From Rheinheimera nanhaiensis E407-8 (GTDB taxonomy: Bacteria > Pseudomonadota > Gammaproteobacteria > Enterobacterales > Alteromonadaceae), in NCBI RefSeq assembly GCF_000296695.1, contig NZ_BAFK01000009.1, positions 62,001 to 126,000 of the forward strand: 64,000 bases of DNA. The letters run 5' to 3'. Under the pieces are notes generated by a model, which saw only the letters and a program-made list of their open reading frames with translations, made no database searches and was not told the origin of the DNA. Both the position numbers and the translations under genes were made by a program. This document shows, in pieces, positions 45,314-49,138 of the stretch (its first letter is position 1; the number at the start of each line of letters is the position of its first letter).

Positions 45314-46312
45314 TTAACGGCTATTCAGGTGACTAATATCCAAGCCGGCATTGCGGCACACGCGCTGCAATAAGCTGAACGCTTCGGTAATGGCTTCTTC
45401 ATTGGCTTTACGCTCGGTAATGTCCTGATGGGTGCCGGCCATAATGCGTGGCGCGCCATGCTCGGTGCGGCTGATGACTTTGCCCTGGGTTAAAATCCAT
45501 ACCCAATGTCCGGCCTTGTGCTGCATACGGCATTCCAGTTCGTAAAATGGCAGCTCTCCATCAAAATGGCGCTGCAGTAGCCGCTCAGAGCGGGCTTTAT
45601 CTGCCGGGTGGACCAGTTTTAGCCAGGTTTCAACGCTAAGCGGCATCAATTCGTGCAGCTCATAACCAATAATTTCGGCCCAACGCCCGTTAAACATGGC
45701 GTCACCGGTTTGCACATTCCACTCCCAGGTAGCCAGCCGTGAGCCTTCAATAAAAGCAGATAACCGCTGGCGTTGATGCTCCAACACCTCTTTATCCTGC
45801 GCCAGCTGCTGTGCTTGTTTTTGTAAACTGCTGCGGGCAATTTCTGCCTCGGCCAGCGCTGCGAGATCTTGCAGTAGCGTAAGTTGTAACTGATTCAACT
45901 CGCGCGGTATGTCATCAATAATACACAGCGTACCCAGCGGCAGCCCTTCGACCGAATGCAGCGGCACGCCGGCATACAAGCGGATTGCCGGTTGGCCGGT
46001 CACCAGTGGGTTATCGGCAAAACGTGCATCCGCTCTGGCGTCAGGCACATACAACACCTTGTCATCAAACACGGCGTGGGCGCAGAACGACACATCACGT
46101 GGCGTTTCCTTTAACGCGATACCCTGGCGTGACATAAACCATTGCCGGTTTTCATCAACCAGGGTAAACAGCGAAATTTTACAACCAAACAGCGCCTGCG
46201 CCAGACGGGTAAAACGATCAAATTCAGCACTGTCCGGGCTATCCAGCAGCCCGGTGGCATACAGCGCTTGCAAGCGCTCAGCTTCGTTTAACGGCAGTTC
46301 AGGTGACAGCAT
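45314..46312 (-). CDS. GAF-PAS sensor protein lacking an output domain
   Basis: A 332-residue cytoplasmic protein. The GAF domain is about residues 25-165 (LFTLVDENRQWFMSRQGIALKETPRDVSFCAHAVFDDKVLYVPDARADARFADNPLVTG), followed by a Gln-rich coiled coil (164-188). A PAS domain with PAC motif covers about 190-310 (GRWAEIIGYELHELMPLSVETWLKLVHPADKARSERLL, ending GTHQDITERKANEEAI). Such halves usually precede a GGDEF or kinase domain, but the gene ends 25 residues after the PAC. It may be truncated or act through a partner. The signal is unknown. Confidence 0.85.
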   Translation of the reverse strand: MLSPELPLNEAERLQALYATGLLDSPDSAEFDRFTRLAQALFGCKISLFTLVDENRQWFMSRQGIALKETPRDVSFCAHAVFDDKVLYVPDARADARFADNPLVTGQPAIRLYAGVPLHSVEGLPLGTLCIIDDIPRELNQLQLTLLQDLAALAEAEIARSSLQKQAQQLAQDKEVLEHQRQRLSAFIEGSRLATWEWNVQTGDAMFNGRWAEIIGYELHELMPLSVETWLKLVHPADKARSERLLQRHFDGELPFYELECRMQHKAGHWVWILTQGKVISRTEHGAPRIMAGTHQDITERKANEEAITEAFSLLQRVCRNAGLDISHLNSR

Positions 46313-46429
46313 AATAAACGGTAATCACAACTAAGACAGGACGTGTTCCAGTGTAAGCCAAAGCATAGGGCAGTGCTAACAGCGTTTTAGAAAATTTTTC
46401 AAAAGACAGGATGGTTGGTAAGTATGAAA

Positions 46430-47064
46430 TGGTGGCCCCAGCTGGGTGAAGCGAGCACAGTGGCAAAACATCGTTTTGCGCGAGTTGAACGCGCAGCAGC
46501 TTTAGCTGCAAGAGGGAATAGTCCGCTGAGGGAGAGCATGAAAGCGAAGCTTGAAATGGTGGCCCCAGCTGGGTGAAACGAGCGCTGTGGCAAAACATCG
46601 TTTTGCGCGAGTTGAACGCGCAGCAGCTTTAGCTGCAAGAGGGAATAGTCCGCTGAGGGAGAGCATGAAAGCGAAGCTTGAAATGGTGGCCCCAGCTGGG
46701 TGAAACGAGCGCTGTGGCAAAACATCGTTTTGCGCGAGTTGAACGCGCAGCAGCTTTAGCTGCAAGAGGGAATAGTCCGCTGAGGGAGAGCATGAAAGCG
46801 AAGCTTGAAATGGTGGCCCCAGCTGGGTGAAACGAGCGCTGTGGCAAAACATCGTTTTGCGCGAGTTGAACGCGCAGCAGCTTTAGCTGCAAGAGGGAAT
46901 AGTCCGCTGAGGGAGAGCATGAAAGCGAAGCTTGAAATGGTGGCCCCAGCTGGGTGAAACGAGCGCTGTGGCAAAACATCGTTTTGCGCGAGTTGAACGC
47001 GCAGCAGCTTTAGCTGCAAGAGGGAATAGTCCGCTGAGGGAGAGCATGAAAGCGAAGCTTGAAA
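46430..47064 (-). repeat. Five 127-bp tandem repeats downstream of tRNA-Ile2, each carrying the tRNA 3' end
   Basis: Units start at 46430, 46557, 46684, 46811 and 46938, and the sixth period begins at the tRNA itself (47065). Each begins with TGGTGGCCCCAGCTGG, the complement of the last 16 nt of the tRNA including CCA. Units two to five look identical; the unit farthest from the tRNA has about three differences near its start. Each unit holds three adjacent perfect inverted repeats: GCAAAAC/GTTTTGC, GCGCG/CGCGC and GCAGCT/AGCTGC. 127 is not a multiple of three, so no reading frame persists as a repeat protein without cycling through frames. Confidence 0.95.
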
Positions 47065-47141
47065 TGGTGGCCCCAGCTGGACTCGAACCAGCGACCGATC
47101 GATTATGAGTCGAGCGCTCTAACCAACTGAGCTATGGGGCC
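47065..47141 (-). tRNA. tRNA-Ile2 (anticodon CAU)
   Basis: A 77-nt tRNA with encoded CCA. The acceptor GGCCCCA pairs with TGGGGCC, the D arm is AGCTCAGTTGGTTAGAGC, the anticodon loop is CTCATAA and the T arm has GGTTCGAGTCC. CAU could mean Met, but the whole sequence closely follows E. coli ileX/ileY, where C34 becomes lysidine to read AUA. No tRNA-Ile2 is otherwise in the window. It is followed directly by the 127-bp repeats and preceded by a strong promoter. Confidence 0.93.
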
Positions 47142-47162
47142 ATTCGCTTGAAAGCGGCAGGC

Positions 47163-47191
47163 AGTATAAAAACTTTTACCGGCTTTGTCAT
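47163..47191 (-). promoter_or_regulatory. Promoter of tRNA-Ile2
   Basis: On the minus strand ATGACA (47186-47191) and TATACT (47163-47168) are separated by 17 bp, followed by a GC-rich discriminator (GCCTGCCGC). This is the pattern of stringently controlled stable-RNA promoters. The transcript would start about 15 bases before the tRNA and run into the repeat array. Confidence 0.75.
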
Positions 47192-47253
47192 CCGGCTTCT
47201 TGAGCTTATGCCGCTTAACTGCTGTTTTTTTAAACTTATCCGCACAGAAATAA

Positions 47254-47278
47254 TAAAGGCGCCACAAAGGCGCCTTTA
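47254..47278 (-). terminator. Terminator downstream of rpoD
   Basis: TAAAGGCGCC-ACAAA-GGCGCCTTTA, a perfect 10-bp stem 15 bp after the rpoD stop; the minus strand continues with TTATTATTTC. It is nearly symmetrical, so it may work both ways. Confidence 0.85.
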
Positions 47279-47293
47279 TACTGCCGGTGTACT

Positions 47294-49138
47294 TTACTCG
47301 TCGAGGAAGCTTTTTAACACTTCTGAACGTGACGGGTGGCGCAGCTTACGCAGGGCTTTGGCTTCAATTTGACGGATACGCTCACGCGTTACGTCAAACT
47401 GTTTACCGACCTCTTCCAGCGTGTGGTCGGTATTCATATCAATACCAAAACGCATGCGCAGTACTTTAGCTTCGCGGGCAGTTAAGCCTGCCAGCACTTC
47501 GTTGGTGGCGTTTTTCAGGCTTTCCATGGTGGCTGAGTCCAGCGGTGACTCACCACTGCTGTCTTCGATAAAGTCGCCCAGATGCGAGTCTTCATCATCA
47601 CCAATCGGCGTCTCCATTGAGATTGGCTCTTTGGCGATTTTCAGCACCTTGCGAATTTTATCTTCTGGCATTTGCATGCGTTCTGATAACTCTTCCGGTG
47701 ACGGCTCACGGCCCATTTCTTGTAGCATCTGCCGTGAAATACGGTTTAGCTTGTTAATGGTTTCAATCATATGCACCGGAATACGGATGGTGCGGGCCTG
47801 GTCGGCGATTGAGCGGGTAATGGCCTGCCGGATCCACCAGGTGGCATAGGTTGAAAACTTATAACCACGGCGGTATTCAAATTTATCTACCGCTTTCATC
47901 AGGCCGATGTTACCTTCCTGAATTAAATCGAGGAACTGTAAGCCACGGTTGGTGTACTTTTTCGCAATAGAGATAACCAGACGTAAGTTGGCTTCCACCA
48001 TCTCTTTTTTCGCCCGGCGGGCTTTGGCCTCACCAATCGACATACGACGGTTAATATCTTTAATTTTAAAGATGCTTAAACCGGTTTCTTCTTCAATTTT
48101 CTTCAGCTTTTCAATGCTGCGTACCAGCTCGTCTTTATGCTCGTCCAGTTTTTCCGAATACGGCTTTTTCGCCGCAATTTCGGCATCTAACCAGGCGGTG
48201 GAGGTTTCGAAGCCAGTGAAAGCTTTAACGAAGTTTTTCTTCGGCATTTTGGCGTATTCAACGCAATGCTTCATCACGATGCGTTCCTGCACCCGTACCC
48301 GATCCATCATTTCGCGCATGTTTTTAACCAGGCGGTCGAACTGCTTGGGTACCAGACGGAAACAGCGGAACACTTCGCTTAATTTTTCAATTTCCGTTTT
48401 CGTGGTGGCATGCTCACGGCCGTTTTGCACAATAGAGTTGCGGGTAATGTCGTACTGGGTGCGCAGCTCAGCAAACTTTTGCCGCGCCATTTCCGGATCC
48501 GGGCCGCTGTCGCCGTCGTCAGAATCACCGTCGCTGTCGTCATCATCATCGCTGTCGTCATCATCGTCCAGCTGATCTTCCGGCACGTCTGAACCGATGT
48601 GGCTGCCGGCAATAGGCGCTTCGTCAATGTCGTTCGGGTCGATAAAGGCCGTAACAATGTCGCTTAAGCGAATTTCTTCCGCTTCGTATTTGTCCCACTG
48701 TTCTAATAAGTAGGTAATGGCTTCCGGGTATTCGGCCACTGAGCTTTGTACGGTGTTAATACCGTCTTCAATGCGTTTGGCAATGTCAATTTCGCCTTCG
48801 CGGGTCAGAAGCTCAACGGTACCCATTTCACGCATGTACATCCGCACCGGATCGGTGGTGCGGCCCAGCTCTTTATCTACGCTGACCAAGGCTTGGGCGG
48901 CTTCTTCAACCGCGTCTTCGTCGGTGGTGGCATCAGACATAATCAGGTCATCGGCATCAGGGGCGCTTTCAAACACCTGGATACCCATATCATTGATCAT
49001 GCGGATAATGTCTTCTATCTGATCTGAATCGATAATGTCTTGCGGCAGGTGGTCATTCACCTCGGCAAAAGTCAGATAACCTTGCTCTTTACCTTTCAGG
49101 ATCAGGAGTTTTAACTGCGACTGAGGATTTTGCTCCAT
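47294..49138 (-). CDS. rpoD: RNA polymerase sigma-70 factor RpoD
   Basis: Primary sigma factor, 614 residues (E. coli 613). Region 1.1 is at the N-terminus. The non-conserved region carries a striking Asp/Ser/Gly acidic run (about 188-213). Regions 2.1-2.4 contain [56 protein letters not shown]. Region 4 ends [35 protein letters not shown]. It is the last gene of rpsU-dnaG-rpoD and is followed by a strong terminator. Confidence 0.99.

Follow-up and report, generated by a model that had tools for sequence, protein, structure and literature searches.

The array of five 127-bp units behind tRNA-Ile2 in Rheinheimera nanhaiensis E407-8 (genome G000) probably arose by tandem amplification of a small non-coding insertion that duplicated its target in the end of the tRNA gene. 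Insertion followed by tandem growth explains the tRNA tails carried by the units, the differences in copy number among relatives, the decay of individual copies, and the recurrence of the arrangement at other tRNAs. Here, the window is the whole 64,000-nucleotide stretch of DNA that was analyzed, and positions refer to it.

Results

Architecture of the tRNA-Ile2 array

The array spans positions 46430 to 47064 on the minus strand, 3' of a tRNA gene with a CAT anticodon at 47065 to 47141 (minus strand). ARAGORN named this gene tRNA-Met(cat), and Rfam scored it as a tRNA with 71.8 bits. Based on its sequence and the known E. coli tRNA-Ile2, we take it to be tRNA-Ile2, the putative insertion target. 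The order on the minus strand is dnaG, rpoD (47294 to 49138, minus strand; NCBIfam RpoD, 898 bits), a promoter-like site, tRNA-Ile2, and the array, with a PAS-domain gene downstream. The promoter-like site for the tRNA transcript (ATGACA-17-TATACT, 47163 to 47191, minus strand) has similar sequence upstream in genus relatives. The promoter scan gave two sites of this kind here, where shuffles averaged 0.9 ± 0.9, and the scan alone is no evidence for a promoter.

Tandem Repeats Finder reported 46425 to 47080 with a period of 127, 5.2 copies, and 99% match. When the unit was used to search the whole genome at E ≤ 0.001, all five matches fell inside the array. Unit 1, next to the tRNA (46938 to 47064), is identical to units 2 (46811 to 46937), 3 (46684 to 46810), and 4 (46557 to 46683), which matched at 100%, while the tRNA-distal unit 5 (46430 to 46556) matched at 98%; all five are on the minus strand. 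These searches confirmed the tandem 127-bp repeats, four of them identical, that the initial annotation had described, and they answered its proposal to look for the unit elsewhere in the genome. Open reading frames in the ORF list overlap the array, and the 127-bp period shifts the reading frame between units. Since the assembly is a 55-contig draft (the window is in contig C47), the number of five units is uncertain. A pure assembly artifact is disfavored because unit 5 carries differences and the relative G007 has three units.

In transcript sense, each unit opens with the native trailer, TTTCAAGCTTCGCTTTCATG, part of which is also present in some unit-free relatives, and closes with CCAGCTGGGGCCACCA, the last 16 nt of tRNA-Ile2. 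The tail search and flank alignment place this copy, the putative target duplication, at 46938 to 46953 in unit 1 (minus strand), and the other copies start at 46811, 46684, 46557, and 46430. Searching with 15 nt of the tail and allowing up to two mismatches gave six matches, all exact (the tRNA and the five units), against an average of 0.2 in shuffles. The initial annotation had each unit starting with the complement of the tRNA end, which is the plus-strand view of the same copy. The tail common to tRNA and unit is 16 nt, and the direct repeat continues into the trailer for a total of 21 nt in G000. Between trailer copy and tRNA copy lies a core which, in its own orientation, reads GGGTGAAACGAGCG...TCCGCTGAGGGAGAGC and is antisense to the tRNA. 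Alignment with short-form cores of other families puts the unit 1 core at 46952 to 47043 (plus strand, ends approximate), and it recurs every 127 bp. A single unit folds mildly better than chance (z of −1.98, with 8 of 200 shuffles equally good).

Copy number and decay in relatives

Searching 31 genus genomes at the DNA level gave 12 matches, 11 of which were counted as holding units of the window type, termed A units. The remaining match, 22 nt in G014, lies in another context and was left out as chance. Repeat number, which the initial annotation had proposed to compare, varies: there are five units in G000, three in G007, one plus a partial one in G017, and one elsewhere, with truncated units in G026 and G027 and a remnant in G021 that matches over only the first 41 nt of the unit. 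In the nine genomes with full units, the tRNA copy is exact in five and differs at 2 or 3 of its 16 positions in four. Mean pairwise identity in these genomes is 0.866 for the tRNA copy, 0.838 for the core, and 0.917 for the trailer copy, and so the tRNA copy is not specially conserved. The three perfect hairpins per unit noted initially are present in G000. Relatives retain the first (GCAGC-TAAA-GCTGC) and the third (CAAAAC-GAT-GTTTTG) but not the middle one (GCGCG/CGCGC); in the two retained hairpins, 4 of 12 pairs show compensatory change.

Across the family, the A pattern was found in 7 of 395 genomes, in two genera. A-like cores lie behind tRNA-Ile2 in the genus and in G278 and behind tRNA-Leu in G294. 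An A-like unit in another genus (L085) has a near-exact tRNA-Leu tail in a repeated context interrupted by an assembly gap.

Larger elements occur at the same tRNA in some relatives. Those in G009, G025, and G027 (L050, L056, and L057) split tRNA-Ile2 after position 40 and bring their own complete tRNA-Ile2 ~50 nt inside, with the displaced tRNA half (33-77) ~12 to 13 kb away. In G006 (L055), the displaced half (26-77) is 7 kb from the intact tRNA and adjoins a reading frame that, by eye, resembles an integrase gene.

A probable insertion with target duplication

In G006, which has a single unit, a 35-bp direct repeat (one mismatch) of the tRNA end and trailer encloses ~92 bp. After removal of its five units, G000 aligns with the unit-free G018, and this alignment, gapped in the trailer, extends into the downstream gene. 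The repeats of both G000 and G006 end at CAGCTGG before GTGAA, and the core thus follows a GG and adjoins a direct repeat of its target. The flanking repeat is largely decayed in G030, G015, and G005, too much so to be measured.

We propose that a mobile, structured element of ~92 bp landed in the T-arm end of tRNA-Ile2, just behind ...CAGCTGG in its own orientation. The landing site, made up of the last 16 nt of the tRNA and the trailer, would have been duplicated on both sides. Such a duplication would keep the tRNA whole, presumably leaving the event neutral for the tRNA, and would thereby allow insertions of this kind to persist. The unit (repeat plus core) may then have grown to five copies through exchange or slippage involving the two flanking repeats. 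By this mechanism the CCA tails would be fossil target duplications and not maturation signals.

Upstream units and cores at other tRNAs

Whole or partial units of ~154 bp lie 5' of tRNA-Ile2 in 16 of 30 genus loci, and each whole unit starts with the tRNA 5' end. These structured units (L022, L029, L033, L038, L047, L049, and others) fall into two sequence types, B1 and B2, with compensatory changes. A hammerhead-like reading of them (GAUGAG-stem-CGAAA) was rejected; the motif is not kept among units, and the Rfam scan had no hammerhead. The model of these upstream units, R2, which includes tRNA 5' sequence and is therefore biased toward tRNA sites, matched 43 of 295 family genomes, representing 16 of 52 genera, and many of them more than once. 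It had no match in G000 at E ≤ 0.01.

At other tRNAs, most clearly those for Arg, Ser, Gly, Val, and Lys, the unit consists of the local tRNA 5' end up to the D-loop GG, followed by a core starting GGGTGAA. The same core appears reversed at the 3' ends of tRNA-Gly in L101 and tRNA-Lys in L128 (86.6 bits), where tandem units finish in the tRNA-Lys tail. L101 and L128 thus have the window layout with unmistakable cores. The core is sense to the tRNA at 5' ends and antisense at 3' ends.

Several further arrangements were seen. Ahead of tRNA-Met in G413 (L157) is a seven-core array (G413:C1:1015893-1016861) whose units hold part of tRNA-Met, with two reversed cores behind. In two loci (L125 in G092 and L126 in G284), tRNA-Lys genes stand in a row, and many of the gaps between them contain cores that include the tRNA 5' end. 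In L155 (G534), a same-strand core precedes the tmRNA gene by ~30 nt.

A class-wide family of structured cores

Cores of ~90 to 110 bp with the pattern GGGTGA...CAnGGA and covarying structure are found at tRNA 5' and 3' ends and elsewhere. We built a covariance model, R3, from 26 cores; unlike R2, it is free of tRNA sequence. For searches spanning more than 40 genomes, filters were stricter and genomes were drawn evenly from the larger groups. At E ≤ 1e-4, R3 matched 35 of 369 genomes of the class, in 32 of 272 genera, and had no match in G000. A tRNA or tmRNA was within the 1.8- to 3.1-kb stretch at 12 of the 20 loci that were then scanned. In the core structure, which was derived from the same alignment on which covariation was tested, 93.8% of cells are paired and 117 cells are double changes; none of 500 shuffles reached as high, and slides were far lower. 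Further pair types in the alignment are less clear (20 of 500 shuffles as high).

Direct repeats ending at the core start are common. Repeats of at least 20 nt were found at 48 of 85 cores against 5 of 425 swapped controls, and repeats of at least 25 nt at 36 of 85 against 0 of 425. The 85 cores come from a motif pattern over the fetched loci, leaving out cores near locus ends or with N, and include several units per array, some double registers, and some RtT-like stretches. Counted by locus, repeats of at least 20 nt occur in 32 of 54 loci and of at least 25 nt in 22 of 54. Target duplication is therefore not universal, as 32 of 54 loci are without a direct repeat of 25 nt. Survival is a likely reason for the difference, in that a tRNA would work only if the insertion duplicates the part that it cuts off.

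Some cores lie at gene ends. In 6 of 88 cores, a frame of 80 codons or more terminates at the stop codon of the core; because the other two frames give 4 and 2, we count only the three cases with family-named genes, namely, dksA in L100, L108 with the same ending, and L166 with a XerD/XerC-like gene. In L100 and L108, the core sits exactly at the dksA stop codon and supplies the stop.

At gathering score, Rfam 15 found only tRNA, tmRNA, and 5S in the window and in 6 + 20 + 12 loci. Rows below gathering include RtT at two units of L071 and L098. We found no paper on these repeats in the open-licence PMC literature.

Relationship of the window core to the core family

On the four identical window units, R3 found the right register and orientation (46952-47030, plus strand, in unit 1) at a non-significant 6.3 bits (E = 3.5), and a chance match at an unrelated position in the window reached 11.9 bits. 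A units of relatives reached up to 9.0 bits, and L085 reached 11.1 bits (E = 0.09). Short forms, which have one hairpin fewer, are numerous among the class-level cores. After the resemblance had been noticed, we compared the A units with an HMM built from 20 short-form cores, of which a single locus contributed 7. Shuffles scored as well in 0 of 2,000 trials for the A consensus and for G025, 2 of 2,000 for L085, 9 of 2,000 for G006, and 11 of 2,000 for the window unit. With a long-form HMM, the counts were 14 of 2,000 for the A consensus and 149 of 2,000 for the window unit, the latter not significant. G015, G005, and L084 likewise did no better than shuffles against the long-form HMM (353 to 503 of 1,000 as good). 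Judged by the HMM shuffle test and the shared layout, kinship of the window core with the class-wide family is likely, short of proof.

RtT-like loci

At E. coli tyrT, three rtT units lie behind the second tRNA and a similar one lies between both tRNAs. The initial annotation had drawn a parallel with rtT. It holds for the layout of tandem units, each with the tRNA 3' end, and fails for family membership, as Rfam RtT (RF00391) had no match in 46000-47400 at E ≤ 10. Among 59 family genomes, 17 gave an RtT match at E ≤ 0.1, with three above the cut-off. Of 15 RtT loci examined in the bacterial family of the window, 14 follow a same-strand tRNA (Lys, Glu, Arg, or Ser), and 9 finish with the last 17 nt of that tRNA with at most one mismatch. 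G000 has an RtT-like unit of its own behind tRNA-Arg (L135, G000:C43:72604-72735), which ends in the tRNA-Arg tail and scores 33.8 bits against a cut-off of 45.

Discussion

Weighing the origins of the array

One alternative is an rtT-like functional RNA, in which the array would be cotranscribed with the tRNA and processed to small RNAs that have CCA-like ends and influence the enzymes of tRNA maturation or the stringent response. We regard this as unlikely. The layout is that of E. coli tyrT/rttR, yet the RtT model finds nothing here; units 1 to 4 are identical and the two persistent hairpins show compensatory change (4 of 12 pairs), whereas 4 of 9 genomes have a decayed tRNA copy, G026 and G027 have a truncated unit and G021 only a remnant, and the orientation of related cores relative to the tRNA varies. 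By readthrough, the array would be transcribed as core antisense and the upstream units as sense, which counts against a fixed RNA role at tRNAs. On these grounds, the processed small RNAs or enzyme titration suggested in the initial annotation are unsupported, and its remaining suggestion, in which events at the tRNA end leave the repeats as a by-product, comes nearest to the evidence.

The tRNA end and trailer could also have been duplicated locally and amplified by slippage with no inserted element at all, which we consider improbable. The native trailer at the unit start, partly present in unit-free relatives, fits such an origin, as does the weak tie of the window core to the dispersed family, and amplification by repeat exchange is required under any reading. 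However, the 35-bp repeat of G006 encloses ~92 bp that are absent from the unit-free G018, and an A-like core is also found behind tRNA-Leu in another genus. We give very little credence to site-specific integration, by which the tRNA tails would be att copies of a phage or ICE integrase and the units remnants of tandem integration. Elements of 7 to 13 kb do split the same tRNA in G006, G009, G025, and G027, and G023 has a displaced half on another contig, but these halves start at tRNA position 33 (G009, G023, G025, and G027) or 26 (G006), outside the tail. An A unit follows the displaced half in three of these five genomes, so the unit predates the element, and 127 bp is too small for an integrase gene. 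Integrase att remnants were rejected on the same comparison: the repeat does not coincide with the crossover, since the displaced halves comprise tRNA 33-77 in four of the genomes and tRNA 26-77 in the fifth. Insertion with target duplication has a difficulty of its own, as some direct repeats exceed 50 nt, which is long for any known transposase; DNA transposases leave shorter target duplications.

A wider and more tentative proposal

We suggest, with more doubt than for the array itself, that Gammaproteobacteria may carry uncatalogued, structured, protein-free mobile elements of ~90 to 110 nt. Their sites, on either strand, would be tRNA genes (after a GG), the neighborhood of tmRNA, and gene ends, and they would leave target duplications of 20 to 60 bp, as a bacterial analogue of SINEs. 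The duplication would restore the tRNA, tandem growth would have made the window array, and E. coli rtT might have arisen likewise. The covarying structured repeats thus brought up are class-wide and outside Rfam 15 at gathering score in the 38 loci scanned.

Comparison with known systems

ERIC, REP/BIME, and Rickettsia palindromic elements are short, non-coding, and hairpin-forming and occupy many sites per genome, much like the cores described here. They are not known to be flanked by 20- to 60-bp duplications carrying tRNA ends. Eukaryotic SINEs are short, non-coding, structured elements with variable flanking target duplications, like these cores. SINEs are characterized by a link to reverse transcriptase, a tail, and an RNA intermediate; if the elements described here likewise move through RNA, bacteria have SINE-like elements.

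E. coli rtT is mostly discussed as a functional RNA. Van der Gulik et al. (2023, PMC9897764) explain partial tRNA copies beside a complete tRNA, an arrangement also seen in the window, by ICE/phage-type integrated elements (~9 to 23 kb in their data set) or by CRISPR spacers; the window insert differs in being ~92 bp and gene-free. In a published table, rtT RNA is described as a 175-bp VNTR with variable copy number in Salmonella, and a tRNA-Gly with a 220-bp variable tandem repeat is also tabulated (PMC2658671). RtT is also reported to contain a tandem GA motif (PMC7657543), and most cores of the class-wide family have a tandem GA motif in their first helix.

The rtT/RttR units and the window array are alike in being tandem units behind a tRNA, each with the local tRNA 3' end last. 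They differ in that the window array fails the RtT model and its core, antisense to the tRNA, resembles the other core family. Furthermore, the RtT tail can pair with an in-unit complement, while the only such partner in the window unit is the non-conserved CCUCAGC/GCUGGGG. From these sequence comparisons, rtT appears to be one instance of a broader pattern, any common descent with the core family being hypothetical. Insertion with target duplication offers one testable origin for tandem partial tRNA copies beside tRNA genes, E. coli rtT included.
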